Source: Halomonas sp. 1513 (GTDB lineage Bacteria > Pseudomonadota > Gammaproteobacteria > Pseudomonadales > Halomonadaceae). Taken from it: a stretch of 64,000 nt of DNA. A program made the position numbers and the translations under genes. Numbering within the stretch: the stretch's first letter is position 1; every line of letters begins with the position of its first letter. The stretch is taken from assembly GCA_001971685.1 (NCBI GenBank), contig CP019326.1, positions 1,984,001-2,048,000 of the forward strand, written 5' to 3'. The notes beneath the pieces are model-generated. The model searched no databases, had not been told where the DNA came from, and was given only the letters and a program-made list of their open reading frames with translations. This document shows positions 51,557-63,710 of this stretch, one piece after another.

Positions 51557-51734
51557 GTCGCGCTCCTTTGCTTAGCCCGCCAGCCGCTGCTGTCTGGGCG
51601 CAGACTAGCGCTGGATGCGGCAAAAAGGAAGCGCTATATGTAATACGTTTTATGTAATCTACACTATGATATGACGGCTTAATTCATGATTACGTGGCTT
51701 ATCTTGATTATGTGCCGGCTATACCGCGATACTG

Positions 51735-51826
51735 AGCGCCAAGCGCCAAGCGCCAAGCGCCAAGCGCCAAGCGCCAAGCGCCAAGCGCCAAGCGCCAAGC
51801 GCCAAGCGCCAAGCGCCAAGCGCCAA
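51735..51826. repeat. Tandem array of a 7-base unit (AGCGCCA), 13 copies
   Basis: Thirteen perfect, uninterrupted head-to-tail copies of AGCGCCA plus one extra base fill 92 bases directly upstream of the ribosome site of the recombinase gene. A 7-base unit is not a multiple of three, so slippage would shift any reading frame that crosses it. A frame is open through the array from an ATG at 51686 into the recombinase gene. With the TTG start at 51848 the array lies in the leader instead, and copy number would alter spacing or RNA structure. Confidence 0.97.
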
Positions 51827-51847
51827 GGGGATAGGGGAGGAGCGACG

Positions 51848-53050
51848 TTGGAACGGCATGAGCAAGGGGCCCCCGGTGGGTTGGCGGTATCGCAAACGCC
51901 GGTGCTGCTTCCCAGCGGCGATGACGTGCATATCGCGGCGCATAGCGATATCGAGGCGGTCAGCCTGTGGCTGGCGGAATACCGCGCCAGCCCCCAGACG
52001 CAGCGTGCCTACCGCAAGGAGGCCGAGCGCCTGCTGCTGTGGCTGGCCGAACGCGGCTTGACCCTCGATGCACTGCGTCGCGAGCAGCTAGCCGACTTCG
52101 AGGCGTTTCTTGCCGACCCGCAGCCGGTGGATCGCTGGATCGGGCCGCCGCGACCCAGGGCCAGCCACCAGTGGCGGCCATTTCGTGGGCCGCTGTCTGC
52201 CTCGAGCCGCCGCCAGAGCCTGGTGATCCTGCAGGGCATGTTCGCCTGGCTAACCGACGCCGGCTGGGTGCGCCACAACCCCTTTCGACTGATGCGCGAC
52301 AAGCGTCGCCGGGTCGACAACCGCAGCGGGCGCATCGAGCGCTACCTGGAGCGGCCGCTGTGGGAGTGGCTGTGGGCATGGCTCAACCGGCCACCGGGAG
52401 AGGGCACCAGCGCGCGGCAGATGCTGGGCTGGCAGCGGCGGCGTTTACTGTTCGGCTTTGCCTATCTGCTGGCACCGCGGATTGCCGAGCTGGCCGCGGC
52501 GCGCATGGAGGATATCTACCGCATCGAGGGCCGCTGGTGGTGGCGGGTCACCGGCAAGGGTGGCAAGCGCGCCGAGATTCCGCTGCCGCCGGAGGCGCTG
52601 ACGCTGGTCGGCGAGTGGCGCCAGGCGCTGGGGCTTGCTCGGGAGCCCGGCCAGCACGATAGCGGACCGCTGCTGCGCGGGCTGGACGGCAAGCGCGGGC
52701 TGGGCGACAACCAGCTCTACCGGCTGATCAAGGCGGCCTTCGGCGAGGCGGCCGATGCGCTCGCGACGGCGGGGCGTCACGGCGAGGCGCCGGCCTCGCT
52801 GGCGGCGATGGCCCCCACGCTGCGCCAGGCCTCGCCGCACTGGCTGCGGCACACGGCACTGACGCACCAGGCTCAGCGCGGCGTCGAGCTACGCTACCTG
52901 GCGATGACCGCCCGCCATGCCCGGCTCGACACCACGGCGCGTTACCTGCACGCCGAAGCGGCGGAGTGGCAGGCGCAGGTGTCACGCCACACGCTGAATG
53001 ATGGCGTTTCCGAGAGCGGGGCGGACAAGGGGGAGGGCTGGCCGGTATAA
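51848..53050 (+). CDS. Tyrosine recombinase / integrase (XerC-like)
   Basis: A site-specific recombinase of 400 aa. The N-terminal SAM-like domain spans about 40-185 (SLWLAEYRASPQTQRAYRKEAERLLLWLAERG). The catalytic domain has R211 (APRIAEL), a lysine in GKGGKRAEI, the HxxR-type box in SPHWLRHTALTH, a second histidine in TARHARLDTTARYLH, and the nucleophile Y366. All catalytic residues are present. I choose the TTG at 51848 because GGGGAGGAG stands just before it. An alternative ATG at 51686 would run through the tandem array and lacks a ribosome site. No excisionase, attachment sites or phage genes are seen nearby. Confidence 0.87.
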   Translation: MERHEQGAPGGLAVSQTPVLLPSGDDVHIAAHSDIEAVSLWLAEYRASPQTQRAYRKEAERLLLWLAERGLTLDALRREQLADFEAFLADPQPVDRWIGPPRPRASHQWRPFRGPLSASSRRQSLVILQGMFAWLTDAGWVRHNPFRLMRDKRRRVDNRSGRIERYLERPLWEWLWAWLNRPPGEGTSARQMLGWQRRRLLFGFAYLLAPRIAELAAARMEDIYRIEGRWWWRVTGKGGKRAEIPLPPEALTLVGEWRQALGLAREPGQHDSGPLLRGLDGKRGLGDNQLYRLIKAAFGEAADALATAGRHGEAPASLAAMAPTLRQASPHWLRHTALTHQAQRGVELRYLAMTARHARLDTTARYLHAEAAEWQAQVSRHTLNDGVSESGADKGEGWPV

Positions 53051-53584: not shown

Positions 53585-55138
53585 TTGGCAAGGGAAATGG
53601 GCGGCGAAATCGGATACGCATGGCTAGCCTCGACTTATGAACTGGATGTCGTCCAGCCTTTTCCTGTCGAGAGTCGTATCGGTCGTGCTCGCCACACGTT
53701 GGAGCATGATGGTCGCCGCAGCGAGGCCTATCTTGAAAGCATGCGTCCGCCGGCGACACTTCCCGGTCATCTCACCTTCGCCCTTAAGCATGAGGGCGTA
53801 CACCTCGAGTTCCTGGCGCGACTCTTCCGGTGCCTGCCTCCTGAGAGTCTTGCTGCATGGGTTCGTAGCGAGCCCACCGGCCAGTATGCTCGCCGGGCAG
53901 GCTTCCTATATGAATGGCTCACGGGGGAGTTCCTCGATATCACCAAGACCGGGGGTAACTACCGGGATGCGCTGAACCCCGATGACTATGTAACGGCAAC
54001 ACAGCCGAGGCGGAACCGCCGGTGGCGTATCAACGATAACCTCCCTGGCACACCAGATTACTGCCCCATGGTTCGGCGAACCCCACAAGTCGATCGGTCG
54101 CGCGGCTATGATATACGCTACCAGTTAGAAAGCATGGAAGGGGAGTTCGGTGCCGATATCCTCCGCCGAAGCGCCGTCTGGTTGACCATCAAGGAGAGTC
54201 AGGCGAGTTTTGTCATCGAGCATGAGGGCAGCCACCAGGGGCGCATACAGCGCTTCGCCGCCGCCATGGAGGCTTATTGTGGGCAGAAAGAAGAGCCGCT
54301 CTCTGCTCAAACGCTGAGTGAACTACAGAGCGCTATCCTCGGCGTTGCAACCATCCAGCCGGGCTTGCGCCAATCTCCCGTCTTCGTGGGCAGTCGCTCC
54401 GTTGGCCAGGGGCCTGTCGTGCACTACGTCTGCCCCCCTTGGGAATGGCTCTCCGGTCTGCTCGGTGGGCTCAGCCAGTTTCTCGATTCGACAGGGCCTG
54501 AAGATGCCATCACCAGGGCAGCGGTGGCCAGCTTCGGCTTTGTGTTCATACATCCCCTGGCAGACGGCAACGGGCGGATCTCGCGCTTCCTGATCAATGA
54601 TACGCTGCGACGCGACGGCGCCGTACCGGAGCCCTTTATCCTGCCGATCTCGGCGGCCATCACCTCGTCTTCAATGCGGCGTATCGAGTATGACCGGGTG
54701 CTGGAGCGTTATTCACGACCTCTGATGCGGCGTTACGGTGATGCCGTAGACTTTCTGACTCGACGGCAGGCATACCCAGACGGAATCGAGTCTGACTTCA
54801 CCTTTTCTGCCTATGAAGAGGCTGGACCTACCTGGCGATATCCCGACCTGACCGATCAGGTTGAATATCTCGAAGATATTGTGCGCTACACGCTGGAGCA
54901 TGAAATGCACCAGCAGGCAGCCATCCAGCGAGCCTGGCACATGACTCGCGAAACGATCAAGGAGTGGGTGGAGGGGCCTGATGAACATATCGACCGTATC
55001 ATTCGCGCTGTTAGACAGCACGGCAGCGTGAGCGGCAAGCTGCGGCGCGACTTTCCCGTCCTCGATGACCCGCTGCTCACCGAGCGGCTGGAGGCCATCG
55101 TCGGCGAGGGCTTTGCCGGTATCGGCCGGATCGAATAG
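53585..55138 (+). CDS. Fic family protein
   Basis: A 517-aa protein with a complete Fic core, HPLADGNGRISR beginning at H323, which uses ATP to AMPylate a target or reverse that modification. About 110 residues earlier, S208-x3-E212 in SFVIEHEG resembles the inhibitory helix ([ST]xxxE[GN]) that lies N-terminal to the Fic core in self-inhibited members, although the G/N position is H. The C-terminal 150 residues are helical and end in a winged-helix-like region. The TTG at 53585 has AGGTGAG eight bases upstream. An ATG at 53597 is the alternative. Base composition is lower in GC than that of its neighbours, which suggests gene transfer. The target is unknown. Confidence 0.88.
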   Translation: MAREMGGEIGYAWLASTYELDVVQPFPVESRIGRARHTLEHDGRRSEAYLESMRPPATLPGHLTFALKHEGVHLEFLARLFRCLPPESLAAWVRSEPTGQYARRAGFLYEWLTGEFLDITKTGGNYRDALNPDDYVTATQPRRNRRWRINDNLPGTPDYCPMVRRTPQVDRSRGYDIRYQLESMEGEFGADILRRSAVWLTIKESQASFVIEHEGSHQGRIQRFAAAMEAYCGQKEEPLSAQTLSELQSAILGVATIQPGLRQSPVFVGSRSVGQGPVVHYVCPPWEWLSGLLGGLSQFLDSTGPEDAITRAAVASFGFVFIHPLADGNGRISRFLINDTLRRDGAVPEPFILPISAAITSSSMRRIEYDRVLERYSRPLMRRYGDAVDFLTRRQAYPDGIESDFTFSAYEEAGPTWRYPDLTDQVEYLEDIVRYTLEHEMHQQAAIQRAWHMTRETIKEWVEGPDEHIDRIIRAVRQHGSVSGKLRRDFPVLDDPLLTERLEAIVGEGFAGIGRIE

Positions 55139-55820: not shown

Positions 55821-56261
55821 TCAGCGCTTGGCGTAGAGGGTGTCGGGGTCGATCAGCGGGGCGCTGGTGATACGCGCCTGCTCGGCGTCGACGGTCACGT
55901 AAAAGCAGCTGCGGCGTCCGGTGTGACAGGCCGGGCCGGTCTGCTCGACCTGCAGCAGCAGGGTATCGCCGTCGCAGTCCAACGCCGCGCTTATCAGATG
56001 CTGCTGCTGGCCGGACGACTCGCCCTTGCGCCACAGCTTGCCGCGCGAGCGCGACCAGTAGCAGACACGCTGCGTGGTGAGCGTCTCGCGCAGCGCGGTT
56101 TCGTTCATCCACGCCATCATCAGCACTTCGCCGCTGTCGTGCTGCTGCGCGATGGCGGGCACCAGACCATCTGGGTTCCACTCGATCGCCGCCAGCAGGT
56201 CATCGAGCCCGACGCTATCGCCGACCTCAGCGCGTTCTAGCCGCTTGAACAGTTGGCTCAT
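55821..56261 (-). CDS. hisI: HisI, phosphoribosyl-AMP cyclohydrolase
   Basis: Zinc enzyme (146 aa) of histidine synthesis that opens the purine ring of phosphoribosyl-AMP. The metal-binding residues are intact: [27 protein letters not shown] contains the magnesium-binding aspartates and three zinc cysteines. Other motifs are [16 protein letters not shown] and [19 protein letters not shown]. It stands apart from other his genes and overlaps the stop of zur by four bases (ATGA), so I take the start at 56261. HisI copies linked to zur are known as replacement enzymes used under zinc limitation. This may be one. Confidence 0.92.
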
Positions 56262-56695
56262 GTCGCACACCCCTCACAGGTGCCCAGCAGCTCGATGGTC
56301 TGACGCTCGACGTGAAACCCCAAGCTGCGCGCACGGCTGGCCAACTGCGCATTGACGTCGTCGAGATGCAGCTCCTCGACGCGGCCGCAGAGGCGGCAGA
56401 TAAGCAGCTGAAAGCCGTGAGCGTGCTCCGGACAGGGGCAGGCCACATAGGCGTTGAGCGACTCGATACGGTGAACCAGTCCCTGCTCGATGAGGAAGTC
56501 CAGTGCGCGATATACCGTCGGCGGTCGCGCTGAGGCGTGCTCGACGGCCAGCTTGTCGAGCAGGTCATAGGCCTTGAGCCCACCGTCGGCGCTGGCGATC
56601 ATCTCGAGCACACGACGGCGGATCGGCGTGAAACGCACACCGCGCTGCTGGCACTGGTGTTCCGCCTGATGAATCAGTGAGTTGGCATCGGACAT
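56258..56695 (-). CDS. zur: Zur, Fur-family zinc uptake regulator
   Basis: A 145-aa metal-dependent repressor. The N-terminal winged helix (RFTPIRRRVLEMIASADGGLKAYDLLDKLAVEHASARPPTVYRALDFLIEQGLVHRIESLNAYVAC) matches Zur more than Fur. The structural zinc site is formed by C100/C103 (CRLC) and C140/C143 (CEGC), as in E. coli Zur. The start at 56695 (MSDANSLIHQ) is where homology begins. It is the first gene of an operon with hisI and yidD. I could not identify a clear Zur box in the 58-base gap upstream, only a TAGAAT -10-like element. Confidence 0.92.
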   Translation of the reverse strand: MSDANSLIHQAEHQCQQRGVRFTPIRRRVLEMIASADGGLKAYDLLDKLAVEHASARPPTVYRALDFLIEQGLVHRIESLNAYVACPCPEHAHGFQLLICRLCGRVEELHLDDVNAQLASRARSLGFHVERQTIELLGTCEGCAT

Positions 56696-56753: not shown

Positions 56754-57734
56754 TCAGGCCGGGCAGGGCAGGGAGTCGGCTGCCTGCAGCTCACCGCGAC
56801 GCGCAAAGTGACGCTGGGCGAAGGCGACGCGCTCGGCAATGCCGACACCCGACGGCTGTCGCTCGATCAGGTCCAGACGCGGCCGTAGCCCTTCACCGTT
56901 GGCCATCTGAATGGCCAGCCCGGGGCGGGCGTTGAGCTCGAGCAGCATGGGGCCCCGGTCGCGATCCAGCACCATGTCGGTGCCGAGATAGCCGAGCCCG
57001 GTCATTTCAAAGCAGCCGGCGGCGAGCTCGAGCAGCGTCTGCCAGCCGGGGATCTTGAGGCTCGCCAACTCGTGTCCGGTATCCGGGTGGTCGATGCGCG
57101 GTCGGTCGAACTGCACGCCACGCAGCGCGCAGCCGCTGGCGATGTCGAGACCCACGCCGACTGCGCCCTGGTGAAGGTTGGCCTTGCCGTCGGAGGCCGC
57201 CGTGGAGAGCCGCATCATGGCCATCACCGGATAGCCCTGAAAGATGATCACGCGGATATCCGGCACGCCTTCGTAGGTGTACTCGGAGAGGCTGTCATCG
57301 AAGTTGATCAACGCCTCGACCACCGCCACGTCCGGCGAGCCGCCCAGCGAGTAGAGGCCGGAGAGTATGTTGGAGACATGACGTTCGAGAGCGCCGCGCC
57401 CCAGGCTTGCGCCGCTGGGCTTGAGGTAGCTGTCGCCCTGGACATGCTCGATGACCAGGATGCCCTTGCCGCCGCTGCCCTTGGCCGGCTTGATCACGAA
57501 GCCCGGGTGCGCCGCGACCATTGCCGCCACGCCTTTGACTTCAAACTGGCTCTTGATGGTACCGATCAGCGCCGGCGTGGTGATGCCGTACTCCTTGGCC
57601 AGCAGCTTGGTCTGGAGCTTGTCATCCACCAGCGGGTAGAGGCGGCGGTCGTTGTAACGGCCAATATAGCGGATATTGCGCCGGTTCATGCCAACGATGC
57701 CCTTGCTCTTGAGCCGCCCGGGTGTGGTCCACAT
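56754..57734 (-). CDS. RimK-like ATP-grasp ligase (alpha-L-glutamate ligase-like)
   Basis: A 326-aa cytoplasmic ATP-grasp enzyme of the family annotated as alpha-L-glutamate ligase-like. The ATP-binding loop is KPAKGSGGKGI at 82-92, and the metal-binding end of the fold is LGTDMVLDRDRGPMLLELNARPGLAIQ near 270-296. Such enzymes form amide bonds between an amino acid and a carboxylate, and both partners are unknown here. GGAGG stands nine bases before the ATG. The gene begins four bases after the stop of the dead-transglutaminase membrane protein and forms one operon with it and the retropepsin-like lipoprotein. Synthesis of a peptide or modified compound is the likely output. Confidence 0.9.
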   Translation of the reverse strand: MWTTPGRLKSKGIVGMNRRNIRYIGRYNDRRLYPLVDDKLQTKLLAKEYGITTPALIGTIKSQFEVKGVAAMVAAHPGFVIKPAKGSGGKGILVIEHVQGDSYLKPSGASLGRGALERHVSNILSGLYSLGGSPDVAVVEALINFDDSLSEYTYEGVPDIRVIIFQGYPVMAMMRLSTAASDGKANLHQGAVGVGLDIASGCALRGVQFDRPRIDHPDTGHELASLKIPGWQTLLELAAGCFEMTGLGYLGTDMVLDRDRGPMLLELNARPGLAIQMANGEGLRPRLDLIERQPSGVGIAERVAFAQRHFARRGELQAADSLPCPA

Positions 57735-57738
57735 ACCC

Positions 57739-59244
57739 TCAATCCTCCGTGACTGGCTTGAAACGGCGTAGTTCCAGCAGCCGGTAGCCGGTGTAGTTGC
57801 CCAGCAGCAGGATCAACGACATCAGGATCATCTGCACGCCCAGGAAGTTGAAGGTGATGTGCCTCACCCAGGGGTTGTTCATGGCCAGGTAGGCGATGAC
57901 CGCTGTCAGCAGGCTGCCGCCGCCCTGAATCAGCACTTCCTTGGGACCTTCCTCCTCCCACAGGATCGACATCCGCTCGATGGTCCAGGACAGAATGATC
58001 ATTGGGAAGAAGGTGATCGTCAGCCCCGCGTTGAGGCCAAAGCGATAGGAGAGTACCGAGAAGATCGAGATGATGGCGATGACCGTGATGATCACCGCCG
58101 ACACTCGCGCCACCAGCAGTAGATTGAGATGCGACAGGTAGCTGCGGATCACCAGGCCGACCGCCACGATCAGCAGGAAGCCGATCAGGCCGGTCATCAG
58201 CGTGGTCTGGATGAAGGCGAGGGCAATCAGCACCGGCATGAAGGTGCCGGAGGTCTTGATGCCGATCAACACGCGTAGCAGCACCACCACCAGCGCCCCG
58301 ATGGGGATCAGCAGGATGGTCTGAAACAGCGCCTGCTCTTCGAGAGGCAAGCTGTGAATCGAGAAGTTGATCAGGGTGTCGTTGGACAGCTGGTTGCGCA
58401 CCGCCGCCGCGGCAGGCTGGTTGTGCTGGATCATCGAGAAGCTGATGCGCGAGTTGCTGCCGCCCTGGACCTCGAGCACCGCCTGATCGCTGTCCTCCCA
58501 CATCAGCAGGTTGTCGGGGCGTCCCTGTTCACCGGTGACCGGGTTGAACAGAGACCAGCGATCCTCATCGAAGACCTGCACCCAGGTCGAGAGACTCTGG
58601 CGGCGACGACCATCCTCGAGCATCAGGCCGCTGACCGCGCGGGCATGCACGCCGGCCTCGTTCAGCAGGCGAACCAGCAGCGGTGCCCGATCGAACTGAT
58701 TGAGCAGTAGCCGAGCATTCTCGCCCTGGCGATCGTCGTTGAAGTCGCGAATCAGCTCGCGGGCAAAGGTGAAGGGGGTGGCGGAGCGCTGCCAGGCGCG
58801 CTCGATGACCTGATTGGCTGCGGTGTCGTAGGGGCGCTCCCAGACCACGTCGTCCTGCAGCTCGGGACGCCGCGACTGAGGCGGACGGGCATCAGGGGCG
58901 ACCAGCAGCTGTACCGAGTAGTAGAGCTGCTGATTACCGACGGCGTCGCGGATCGACCACTGGGCCCGGCGGCCGCGCTCATCCTCCAGGAACGAGAGCC
59001 CGTAGCCCGGCGAGGCGGTGTTTTCGGTCAATACGCGATAGCCTTGCTGGTGGGAGGGCAGCGCCATGTCGACCATGGCCGGCCCGCCCCGGGCGGTAAA
59101 ATTGACCTGCGCTTCGATTTCCCAGACCTGGCGCTGCTCGCCGGGTGTCCAGGGGACCTCGAATTGGATATGCCGATGCACACTGAGGGCGATGCCGGCG
59201 ATCATCAGAGCGCCGACGATGAGATAGAAGGGCAGACGTGACAT
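57739..59244 (-). CDS. Inactive transglutaminase fused to a multi-pass membrane domain
   Basis: A 501-aa inner-membrane protein. An N-terminal anchor (about 5-22) is followed by a periplasmic part. Residues about 140-260 resemble a transglutaminase core (LLNEAGVHARAVSGLMLEDG, STWVQVFDEDRWSLFNPVTGE). The catalytic cysteine is missing (I see no cysteine in the whole protein), the histidine position is S or T, and the aspartate is N234, so it cannot act as a protease or transglutaminase. From about 305 to 485 it has seven or so membrane segments. The family occurs in operons with an ATP-grasp ligase and a retropepsin-like protein, as here. It may bind peptides or sense envelope state. Confidence 0.9.
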   Translation of the reverse strand: MSRLPFYLIVGALMIAGIALSVHRHIQFEVPWTPGEQRQVWEIEAQVNFTARGGPAMVDMALPSHQQGYRVLTENTASPGYGLSFLEDERGRRAQWSIRDAVGNQQLYYSVQLLVAPDARPPQSRRPELQDDVVWERPYDTAANQVIERAWQRSATPFTFARELIRDFNDDRQGENARLLLNQFDRAPLLVRLLNEAGVHARAVSGLMLEDGRRRQSLSTWVQVFDEDRWSLFNPVTGEQGRPDNLLMWEDSDQAVLEVQGGSNSRISFSMIQHNQPAAAAVRNQLSNDTLINFSIHSLPLEEQALFQTILLIPIGALVVVLLRVLIGIKTSGTFMPVLIALAFIQTTLMTGLIGFLLIVAVGLVIRSYLSHLNLLLVARVSAVIITVIAIISIFSVLSYRFGLNAGLTITFFPMIILSWTIERMSILWEEEGPKEVLIQGGGSLLTAVIAYLAMNNPWVRHITFNFLGVQMILMSLILLLGNYTGYRLLELRRFKPVTED

Positions 59245-59297
59245 GGAAATTCCTTGTGCGACGAAGGGGCCTGTGCGGCCCGGTCAGCGGCAGCGCG

Positions 59298-60170
59298 TCA
59301 GGATTCGCTACCGTTGGCTTCGCTTTCATCGTCATCCGTGGCTTCATCCTCGCCGGCTTCGTCCGCAGGACGGCCGCCCGGAAACTCGGGGCGCGGGTGA
59401 AGATAGGTCTCGGCGACATCGATGATGGCAATATCCATCATGAAACGCCGCCCCAGTAGTACAGGATAGTTGAGGTGGCTGCGGTCATTCAGCGTGAACT
59501 CGACCTGTTCGCGAATCGGCCCCAGGGTCATCAGCATCCTGACCACCGGGCGTGACTCTTCGCCAGCCGCTTGCAGGATACGTACGCGGCGCACCACGGG
59601 GGCCTCGATCCACTCGTCGCGAACCGGCTCGACCACCACGGCGTCATCGTTCAATGCCAGCTTGAAGCGCACCCAGGTGTCGCCGTCGCGTTCGAAGCGA
59701 GTGATATCGGTGGCCGACAGCGACGAGGTGTTGGCGCCGGAGTCGACCCGCGCCTTGAGATAGGTGCCGACATCCGGCAAGCCGATCCACTCGCTGCGCC
59801 CGAGGATCTCCTTGTTATCGAGCGGGCTATCGGCATCCTCTTCGCACTGGGCGGGGATAATCACCGGATCATCGGAGAGTAGCTCGATATCGTCCTGCAG
59901 TTGACGCACCAGGCTGCCCACTTCACGCACATCGGCTGTCAGCCGACGGGTATCATCGCTGTGCTGCGTCAGCCGCTGTTCATGCACATCGCAGCGTTCA
60001 GCCAGTCGCTGCTCGAGCTGCGCCACCCGCGACTCGAACTGCATCTCGGTGAGCAGGGGTTCCGGGGTAGGCTCGGGCTCGGTTTGCAACAGGGCACAGC
60101 CACCCAGCAGGAGTGGCAAGGCCAGGGCGGTGGCAGGAAGTGCGCCTCGAAACCGCATCACAATCGACAT
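59298..60170 (-). CDS. Retropepsin-like lipoprotein (Zn_protease / RimB-like family)
   Basis: A 290-aa lipoprotein. The signal peptide ends in LLGGC with C25 as the lipidated residue. Residues 40-105 are a helical, possibly coiled-coil, linker. The catalytic-type domain (about 120-265) has the aspartyl-protease motif ARVDSGANTSS (D143) and LNYPVLLGRRFMMD. The C-terminal tail is acidic. The family was once named ATP-dependent zinc protease, but the DSGA motif fits a retropepsin fold. The start at 60170 is chosen for the signal peptide. The ATG at 60158 is an alternative, and neither has a strong ribosome site. It is the first gene of a three-gene operon. A perfect 16-base palindrome lies about 105 bases upstream. 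Confidence 0.88.
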   Translation of the reverse strand: MSIVMRFRGALPATALALPLLLGGCALLQTEPEPTPEPLLTEMQFESRVAQLEQRLAERCDVHEQRLTQHSDDTRRLTADVREVGSLVRQLQDDIELLSDDPVIIPAQCEEDADSPLDNKEILGRSEWIGLPDVGTYLKARVDSGANTSSLSATDITRFERDGDTWVRFKLALNDDAVVVEPVRDEWIEAPVVRRVRILQAAGEESRPVVRMLMTLGPIREQVEFTLNDRSHLNYPVLLGRRFMMDIAIIDVAETYLHPRPEFPGGRPADEAGEDEATDDDESEANGSES

Positions 60171-60290: not shown

Positions 60291-60377
60291 CGAAGCCAAG
60301 TATTGCTACATGATATGGCGAACCCTGTAGCCAGCTGAGGGTCATAGCGCTACAAACATCATGCAAGGGATCAGTCA

Positions 60378-60926
60378 ATGTACAAGAAGCCCCCGCTATT
60401 CCATCGCCATTGGCTGGTGCTGTGGCTAACTCTGCTGCTGGCCGGCTGCGCCGGTGTCGATGTGGAAGACTATGCGGGAAGCGAGCCACGCCTGGACATC
60501 GCCGAGTACTTTACCGGCGAGACCCGCGCCTGGGGCATGGTCCAGGATTTCCGCGGTGAGGTGCAGCGTCGCTTCACGGTGGATATCGATGGCAGCTACG
60601 ACGGCCAGACCCTGGTGCTCGACGAGCACTTCGTGTTTGACGATGGCGAAACCGACCGCCGCGTCTGGACCTTCGAGCGCATCGATGACAACCGCTGGCG
60701 CGGTAGCGCCAATGACGTCGAGGGCTCGGTCGATGCCGAACATCACGGCCACGTCTTCAATATGCGCTATCCGCTGGCGGTCGAGGTCGTCGGTCGCGAG
60801 ATTACCTTCCAGATGGATGACTGGATGTACCTGCAGCCGGATGGCCGCCTTATCAACCGTACCGCGATGCGCAAGTTCGGCATCACCCTCGGCGAGATCA
60901 CCATCGTCTTCGATCAGCGTCCCTGA
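60378..60926 (+). CDS. DUF3833 family lipoprotein
   Basis: A 182-aa lipoprotein of the DUF3833 family, function unknown. The signal peptide ends in LLLAGC, with the lipidated cysteine near residue 24. The rest is predicted beta-rich: YFTGETRAWGMVQDFRGEVQRRFTVDIDGSYDG, then FDDGETDRRVWTFERIDDNRWRGSANDVEG, and a final MDDWMYLQPDGRLINRTAMRKFGITLGEITIVF. The pattern suggests a lipocalin-like barrel. The gene is divergent from the retropepsin-lipoprotein operon, with which it may share regulation, and converges on ectC with a hairpin between. Confidence 0.85.
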   Translation: MYKKPPLFHRHWLVLWLTLLLAGCAGVDVEDYAGSEPRLDIAEYFTGETRAWGMVQDFRGEVQRRFTVDIDGSYDGQTLVLDEHFVFDDGETDRRVWTFERIDDNRWRGSANDVEGSVDAEHHGHVFNMRYPLAVEVVGREITFQMDDWMYLQPDGRLINRTAMRKFGITLGEITIVFDQRP

Positions 60927-61005: not shown

Positions 61006-61398
61006 TCAGTCCTCGGCCGGCGCGTAGGAGCCATCCTCGCGATGCACTTCGGTGCCGGTAATCGGCGGCGTGAACACGCAGGCCAGGTGCATGGTCTTGC
61101 TGGCACGCAGCAGATGCTCGTCGTGTTGATCGAGAATGTAGATGTCACCCGGCTTGATCGGCCAGATCTTGCCATCGGCCAAGGTCTCGACTTCGCCTTC
61201 GCCTTCCATGCAGAACACCGCTTCATAGTGGTGTTTGTAATGGATGTGGGTCTCGGTGCCTTCGTAGATACGCGTGATATGGAAGGAGAAGCCTCCGTTA
61301 TCGCTGGCCAGCAGCAGCCGCGTGCTGTCCCAGTTGCCGTTCTCGGCCTTGACCAGACGCTCTGACTGGCGCGCTTCTTCGAGGTTACGAACGATCAT
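61006..61398 (-). CDS. ectC: EctC, L-ectoine synthase
   Basis: A cupin enzyme of 130 aa that closes N-acetyl-diaminobutyrate to ectoine, the main compatible solute. The start at 61398 ([11 protein letters not shown]) has GGAG eight bases before it and gives the normal family length. Visible cupin parts are [25 protein letters not shown] and [29 protein letters not shown]. It is last in the ect operon, but 168 bases separate it from ectB. The gap has a hairpin that could reduce read-through, so a promoter of its own is possible. I found no convincing sigma-54 site there. Confidence 0.96.
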
Positions 61399-61460
61399 GT
61401 GTGTGATCTCCTGAATGCGGTGAATCGCGGGTGCCGTGACGACAGGCGCGTAACGTAACA

Positions 61461-61482
61461 ACGGCCCACCGCAGCGGGCCGT
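61461..61482 (-). promoter_or_regulatory. Hairpin in the ectB-ectC gap
   Basis: ACGGCCC and GGGCCGT form a 7-bp stem with an 8-base loop, followed on the minus strand by TGTTAC. It lies between ectB and ectC, 63 bases before the ectC start. It may act as a weak terminator or attenuator, or as an mRNA-processing structure. Confidence 0.45.
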
Positions 61483-61566
61483 GTATGTTCAGGGTACCAG
61501 GCATGCCCGTGCCCTGCTCTTCTACTGCCAAGCTCTGCTATCGAACCCTGCTTGGAGCATAGCGCG

Positions 61567-63512
<1,946 letters not shown>

Positions 63513-63520
63513 CATTATAC

Positions 63521-63535
63521 TTCGCAGTTGGCGAA
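63521..63535. promoter_or_regulatory. Inverted repeat immediately upstream of ectA
   Basis: TTCGC-AGTTG-GCGAA is a perfect 5-5-5 inverted repeat starting nine bases before the ectA start codon. A TATAAT-like sequence (minus strand, 63519-63514) overlaps the double ATG, which is too close to serve this start as a usual -10. The repeat could hide the weak ribosome site in a stem or bind a regulator. Confidence 0.4.
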
Positions 63536-63710
63536 TTTGCGTCACATGATAACAAGCACTTATACATAAATCAAAGAGCCCCTTATCATGTGGCGCGTAA
63601 TCCATAACCCTGAATTATGTTCGCGCCCCGGCGCAACCGCCTCGGCCCGGGCCACTCGCTCAGTTTAGCCCAGATCGGGCGCGGTAGTGGATCGCGGTGT
63701 GCCCAGACGA

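Follow-up and report, generated by a model that had tools for sequence, protein, structure and literature searches.

We examined the window, a 64,000-nucleotide (nt) stretch of the Halomonas sp. 1513 genome (4.13 Mb, one contig), and in it a locus of three genes encoding a retropepsin-like protease (rloA), a membrane protein with a transglutaminase fold (rloB) and an ATP-grasp ligase (rloC). All three lie on the minus strand (60170-56754) with spacings of 53 nt (rloA/rloB) and 4 nt (rloB/rloC), which confirmed the nearly gapless arrangement described in a sequence-only reading of this DNA. The start of rloA was taken as the ATG at 60170; the frame from the TTG at 60299 merely marks the first possible start. 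A promoter scan returned one site versus 0.9 expected. Canonical relatives examined showed the same gene order, with RloA absent from locus L030. By sequence comparison the locus is almost certainly the rlo operon of a halophilic gammaproteobacterium. It represents the Halomonas family's form of a system published in 2025, and its protease is of the lipoprotein type. Coordinates are given in Table 1.

The rloA, rloB and rloC genes were named and described in Pseudomonas aeruginosa in 2025 (PMC12239564). P. aeruginosa has three secreted, redundant RloA proteases, and the triple mutant cannot grow without salt. The triple mutant regains growth without salt when either rloB or rloC is deleted, and its biofilm, beta-lactam and shape defects are then partially rescued (PMC12239564). 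In this species the operon bears on low-salt survival, cell shape, biofilm formation and beta-lactam sensitivity. In vitro, RloA cleaves reporters carrying 8 or 10 glutamates and not those with 6 or fewer; of its residues Asp48, Arg114 and Arg137, both arginines are needed for cleavage, and mutants in them fail to rescue (PMC12239564). The sequence-only reading had proposed a three-part logic for the window genes (cytosolic ligase, dead periplasmic fold, outer protease) with an osmotic and envelope role, and both proposals agree with the P. aeruginosa operon. Its statement that the product was not established also holds: the physiological product is still unassigned in the available text (PMC12239564). 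A Shewanella screen reported that loss of an inactive transglutaminase raises vesicle production (PMC12096838).

RloC scored 447 bits against TIGR02291 (cut-off 314) and 310 bits against PF14397, and the earlier assignment as an ATP-grasp ligase stands. PF14403, the first guess at the ligase family, had no match in the genome. Residues aligning with the RimK ATP-grasp motifs, the catalytic ones among them, were conserved in 49-50 of 50 rows. RloC and RimK structures have these motifs in common, and their sequences match weakly (expectation value, E, 0.0008-0.003). By its sequence, RloC is fully equipped as a ligase.

RloB contains no cysteine in 501 residues, and when it was aligned to intact relatives the catalytic Cys, His and Asp columns held a gap, Ser and Asn; the predicted loss of all three catalytic residues was therefore upheld. 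Its match to Transglut_core (PF01841) was below the cut-off (17.3 vs 23 bits), and no Protein Data Bank (PDB) chain matched its sequence at E up to 10. The AlphaFold2 model had a predicted local distance difference test (pLDDT) score of 84.1. Conserved periplasmic residues lay mostly in the beta domain (Trp96, Arg99, Gln105, Tyr108, Tyr109). A kinship of the seven-transmembrane (7TM) domain with CapC/PgsC was prompted by motif resemblance by eye, and hhalign gave no significant match. A sub-cut-off PF14102 match in genome G571 (L105) was dropped: the long frame at that locus looks heme A synthase-like.

RloA has the lipobox L-G-G-C and the motif R-V-D-S-G-A containing Asp143, as expected of the lipoprotein with a retropepsin DSGA motif that had been read from the sequence. 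Related solved structures were 9g59 (E 7e-21), 9g58 and 2pma. The protein is of the exported type and keeps the Asp and the Arg pair, the arginines being 23 residues apart as in P. aeruginosa RloA. A spacer of about 118 residues precedes the active Asp, and an Arg replaces the Lys two residues before it. The disulphide Cys pair, said to be conserved in periplasmic orthologs (PMC12239564), was missing from the window protease domain, which has no Cys; beyond Halomonadaceae, 32 of 45 rows of the RloA type had a pair at the expected spacing. A lipobox with a spacer of 100-134 residues and a Cys-free domain also occurred in L018, L021, L027, L031, L097, L098 and L099. The L039 RloA has a lipobox, a spacer of 148 residues and two Cys at other sites, and that of L024 has a lipobox and a changed motif.

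Both window proteins fell under the NCBIfam cut-offs: RloB scored 354.5 vs 900, and RloA was below those of RloA1-3 (RloA3, 124.6 vs 210). The NCBIfam RloB, RloA and RloA2 models are of type 'exception'. The same genome holds two further PF05618 genes. One, at L003, adjoins a RimK-like frame and was therefore taken as RimB. The other (L002, 1444-2082) lies apart from the operon and is another RloA-type gene whose product looks exported and has the Cys pair; it is likely redundant with rloA, so that a single rloA deletion may show little.

To assess gene content across the family, we sampled 101 Halomonadaceae genomes. RloB and above-cut-off RloC occurred in the same 69, an association beyond chance. 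At least two PF05618 (RloA/RimB-type) genes were present in 67 of the 69 genomes with RloB, whereas only 1 of the 32 RloB-free genomes held two; 29 of those had one and two had none. Such numbers are expected if secreted RloA is needed only where RloB and RloC act, and the pattern agrees with the published suppression by rloB or rloC deletion.

Outside the canonical group, a sister lineage retained the catalytic residues. Ten low-scoring PF14402 proteins from the class and phylum samples (L047-L051, L080-L084) had an intact Cys-His-Asp triad, and one of them, L049, matched PF01841 at 60.5 bits, above the cut-off of 23. For the class sample 43 of 58 PF14402 matches were fetched and for the phylum sample 17 of 65 (the rest were already included or left out), with all matches under 310 bits fetched. 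A pattern search of named genomes gave 24 loci (L056-L079), all intact, six of them repeats. Their hosts were, by title, mostly gammaproteobacterial metagenome-assembled genomes, with Mariprofundaceae, Ghiorsea and a small number of bins carrying the labels Nitrospirota or Campylobacterales. The search patterns came from parts of intact relatives other than the triad; the intact triad among these loci is thus partly a product of selection, and the lack of RloA is not.

Distinct loci numbered 28 with an intact triad and 59 with a dead one. RloA lay directly upstream in 42 of 46 dead-triad loci (anywhere in the locus in 44 of 46) and in 0 of 26 intact-triad loci, where it was found nowhere. These counts exclude the 12 Halomonadaceae loci L004-L015 and loci with <700 bases upstream; without those exclusions RloA was upstream in 54 of 59 dead and 0 of 28 intact loci. 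Dropped from the tally were the own-genome loci L001-L003, the repeats L056, L062, L066, L070, L082 and L084, and L096, which has no RloB by profile. Frames split in two intact loci (RloB in L078, RloC in L048) were used as unmended pieces. Nine genomes had only intact PF14402 proteins, and a genome-wide search found no PF05618 gene in six of them, two of which are 88% complete.

RloC adjoined RloB in 26 of the 28 intact loci, and the other two loci end there. In L051 the two proteins are fused in one 838-codon frame with PF01841, PF14402 and PF14397 in order; residues 546-631 of its AlphaFold2 model (linker and ligase part) had pLDDT <50 and were left uninterpreted. Among the 18 intact loci with at least 4 kb past RloC, a tetratricopeptide repeat (TPR) protein came next in 17. 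A family of about 395 amino acids with a signal-peptide-like start and strands resembling those of a barrel, a putative outer-membrane barrel judging by its sequence, was likewise present in 17, and 13 end in an aromatic residue. Neither family was found past RloC in dead loci (0/38). We found no account of the intact form with TPR and barrel-like partners in the limited literature searched, and it may be new. Iyer et al. (2009) may already have described some of these gene sets. For work on the product, the sister systems bring an intact triad whose cysteine is open to mutation or trapping, a naturally fused ligase and membrane protein suited to purification, and TPR and barrel-like neighbours from which the product's destination may be predicted.

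Other gene arrangements were seen in the same searches. L085 (6080-7237) and L086 (5900-7021) encode a PF14402 domain with no transglutaminase domain and with RloC adjoining; both were kept apart from the tally, and in L085 a PF05618 gene and a RimK-like frame lie close by. At L053 (1624-8826), a PF14402 protein that has lost its Cys and a divergent PF05618 gene lie between two CorA genes and a P-type ATPase gene. Proteins of >1000 amino acids with two CapC-like (PF14102) regions were present in L100-L104 and L106-L110; in four of the five genomes the open frames are 1081-1089 codons long. These genomes belong to one family (f198), which elsewhere also has the intact RloB form, and we know of no description of such two-region proteins.

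To place the two forms relative to each other, trees were built for RloC and RloB. The RloC tree (79 rows; a quick search with no bootstrap) placed the dead group on one side of a branch with a Shimodaira-Hasegawa-like approximate likelihood-ratio test (SH-aLRT) value of 98; L051 had a long branch and unsure placement, and the root is weak because the RimK outgroup fills only 22% of columns. In the RloB tree (85 rows) the intact group fell on one side of a branch (100). L052, L053, L054 and L095 formed their own branch (100), apart from the canonical dead group (94). All four have lost the Cys and kept the Asp, and two have kept the His; three of their loci have a PF05618 gene, in opposite orientation, and no RloC was found beside them. 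Loss of the Cys and a nearby RloA may, on this sequence evidence, have coincided twice, hardly more. From the wider transglutaminase family, we infer that the intact triad is the older state. The P. aeruginosa authors propose that rlo arose from the rim locus plus rloB and a signal peptide (PMC12239564). Our comparative data suggest a different order of events, without settling it.

Together these data lead us to lean, with slightly better than even confidence, towards a reading in which RloC and RloB yield a periplasmic amide product, for which the transglutaminase domain, now dead, and RloA would be alternative cutters. Working on the inner face of the membrane, RloC would link amino acids, glutamate being the likeliest, to form an amide chain or to load a carrier. 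The 7TM domain of RloB would be the membrane half of the machine and would deliver or present the product in the periplasm, where RloA, lipid-anchored on its spacer, would cut it. Without a cutter the product would accumulate and harm the envelope, most visibly in low salt. A joint product of RloB and RloC fits the suppression by deletion of either gene. The transglutaminase domain would be a retired cutter, a view drawn from the intact triad of the sister lineage, where no RloA adjoins; for the dead domain, the comparative data fit a disused cutter first. Such a cutter swap, if true, would explain a dead enzyme and a live protease in one operon. Possible, and decidedly more tentative, is a broader proposal in which RloB-RloC would form the centre of a machine, so far undescribed, for making an amide polymer and moving it across the inner membrane. 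One form would serve trans-envelope export, with an active transglutaminase-7TM protein, ligase, TPR protein and outer-membrane barrel. In the Pseudomonas/Halomonas line, where the export parts are missing, the transglutaminase would have died and a retropepsin of the RimB type would have been recruited to degrade the product in the periplasm.

Several results weigh against the favoured reading. The triad/RloA association amounts to one clear split and perhaps a second lineage, so that the locus counts are not independent. The dead-triad loci L030 and L052 lack RloA, L053 and L054 have it only in another position and orientation, and three of the nine intact-only genomes do hold a PF05618 gene. 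The RloB-RloC fusion is a single case. For transport by the 7TM domain, hhalign against CapC-type sequences gave E values of 0.03 and 0.61 (probability 1.65% and 0.09%) with only 4 sequences on the CapC side, compared with E 4.7e-05 in a control between two CapC-type halves. RloB had no match to PF14102 (PgsC/CapC), and a weak structural match of its membrane part to an RnfA/NqrD-type fold was not used. For the barrel-like family, Pfam gave no match to P0121, the SlipAM match of P0123 was below the cut-off, and P0121 matched no PDB chain at E up to 1. In the sources consulted no product was detected. In P. aeruginosa the in-cell RloA substrate was not found, and single rloB and rloC deletions have mild defects of their own, so that the product is not merely harmful (PMC12239564).

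Other explanations account for part of the same evidence. RloC might instead glutamylate a protein, either the tails of RloB itself or some other protein of the envelope, a modification that RloA would trim, with RloB as scaffold or target and no free polymer. The cytosolic relatives RimK and RimB act in this way on RpsF, the P. aeruginosa authors name it as possible (PMC12239564), and the ATP-grasp motifs common to RloC and RimK are consistent with it. RloC is predicted to be cytosolic and RloA lies outside, however, which would require the modified part to pass through the membrane, and the TPR and barrel-like partners of the sister operons suit transport better; we regard this account as rather doubtful. 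A signalling circuit, following the logic of the sequence-only reading, is unlikely; here the dead domain would bind or sense a ligand in the envelope, RloA would cut either this ligand or RloB, and RloC would answer inside. Inactive transglutaminase domains have been proposed as peptide binders in other proteins (PMC3482391), and the conserved residues of the RloB beta domain suggest that some binding site is kept. But RloC has the make-up of an enzyme, the triad of the sister form is complete and no protease accompanies it, and suppression by either deletion fits a joint product. Very unlikely, in our estimate, is a product that is not glutamate-based, with RloC and RloB modifying a cell-wall or surface sugar and RloA having another substrate. 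The PF14397 name (sugar-transfer associated), given the 310-bit RloC match, and the beta-lactam and shape phenotypes of P. aeruginosa would suit it; the Glu-binding arginines of RloA are nonetheless needed for rescue in cells (PMC12239564), and this pair is conserved.

The position beside ectABC had been read as a functional clue, which the survey of co-occurrence and distance to osmolyte genes did not support. EctA was above cut-off in 99 of the 101 Halomonadaceae genomes, 30 of which have ectA and no rloB. In the 69 genomes with rloB, ectA was within 15.1 kb in 56; it was 29-77 kb away in a further 5, and the other 8 had it on a different contig. The interval among linked genomes varied from 3.9 to 15.1 kb. 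Among ten family loci examined closely, of which 7 were linked and 3 were not, a Fur-like gene followed RloC in 8, hisI was present in 6, and in all 7 linked loci ect lay upstream on the same strand, with DUF3833 between in 3. The conserved block also includes the Fur-like gene and hisI, as well as sufE. Outside the family, 11 genomes of the class sample (274 genomes) had both rloB and ectA, none close: nine on different contigs, G369 at 157 kb and G349 at 2.15 Mb. Because some contigs end about 8 kb from rloB, we searched the surrounding 12-14 kb in every one of the eleven except G369 and found no ect gene. Co-occurrence outside the family was mild (11 of 272 genomes with both; Fisher p 0.028, kinship ignored). 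As no close pair was found outside it, the linkage is synteny of Halomonadaceae. In the window the divergent DUF3833 gene between rloA and ect makes the two sets neighbours, not one operon. That the operon serves ectoine-based osmoprotection is the least probable account, a long shot despite the linkage in 56 of 69 family genomes.

Table 1. Features of the rlo locus and its neighbours (window coordinates).
Feature	Position	Strand	Description
rloA	59298..60170	-	Retropepsin-like aspartic protease, lipoprotein type, 290 amino acids; PF05618 131 bits
Lipobox cysteine codon (Cys25, L-G-G-C)	60096..60098	-	Motif; predicted lipoprotein, judged from the motif
Active-site motif D-S-G-A (Asp143)	59733..59744	-	Asp invariant in 32/32 aligned rows
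Arg207 codon	59550..59552	-	Matches Arg114 of P. aeruginosa RloA; 64 residues past Asp, 23 ahead of Arg230; 31/32 rows
Arg230 codon	59481..59483	-	Matches Arg137 of P. aeruginosa RloA; 31/32 rows
rloB	57739..59244	-	N-terminal transmembrane segment, periplasmic beta domain, dead transglutaminase domain, 7TM domain; 501 amino acids; PF14400 191 bits, PF14402 369 bits
Transglutaminase fold of RloB	58414..58830	-	About residues 139-277; no catalytic Cys, His, Asp
Membrane domain of RloB	57745..58344	-	About residues 301-500; PF14402 and helices in AlphaFold2 model
rloC	56754..57734	-	ATP-grasp, alpha-L-glutamate-ligase-like, 326 amino acids; TIGR02291 above cut-off, PF14397 310 bits
DUF3833 gene	60378..60926	+	PF12915 207 bits; divergent, between rlo and ect; neighbour, no operon part
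ectC, ectB, ectA	61006..63605	-	PF06339, PF00202, GNAT family; EctA 225 bits; neighbours upstream of rlo

On the other side of the operon, close behind rloC, lies a Fur-family gene (56258-56695; Zur-like, 140 bits vs cut-off 167). Elsewhere in the window, a 7-bp unit, AGCGCCA, is repeated in 13.3 perfect copies (51735-51827) in the 5' part of a recombinase-like frame (51686-53050). The unit is not a multiple of three, so that this frame could be switched on and off. Beside the recombinase-like gene is a gene for a 517-residue Fic-domain protein (53585-55138; PF02661, 45 bits).

The window operon was compared with several known systems. PgsBCA/CapBCA works alike, with a ligase, a membrane subunit and an outside hydrolase acting on polyglutamate; the PgsB ligase has a different, Mur-ligase-like fold, and the RloB 7TM domain shows no significant profile match to CapC-type sequences. 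TgpA-type membrane transglutaminases differ from RloB, with low Z, and no ATP-grasp partner of theirs is known to us. Active transglutaminases (PF01841) have the triad, lost from window RloB, and score above the cut-off, as the sister protein L049 does and window RloB does not. RimB-RimK likewise joins an ATP-grasp glutamate ligase to a PF05618 retropepsin, but RimB has no signal peptide and no RloB, whereas the window protease has a lipobox and RloB beside it, and a separate rimBK-like pair is present at L003. P. aeruginosa rloABC differs in its RloA, the window protein being a lipoprotein with a long spacer, Arg for Lys and no Cys pair, and the window RloA and RloB score below the NCBIfam Rlo cut-offs. 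In gene order and domains, in the dead transglutaminase-7TM fusion with its ATP-grasp partner, and in the secreted retropepsin with its Asp and Arg pair, the two operons are alike.

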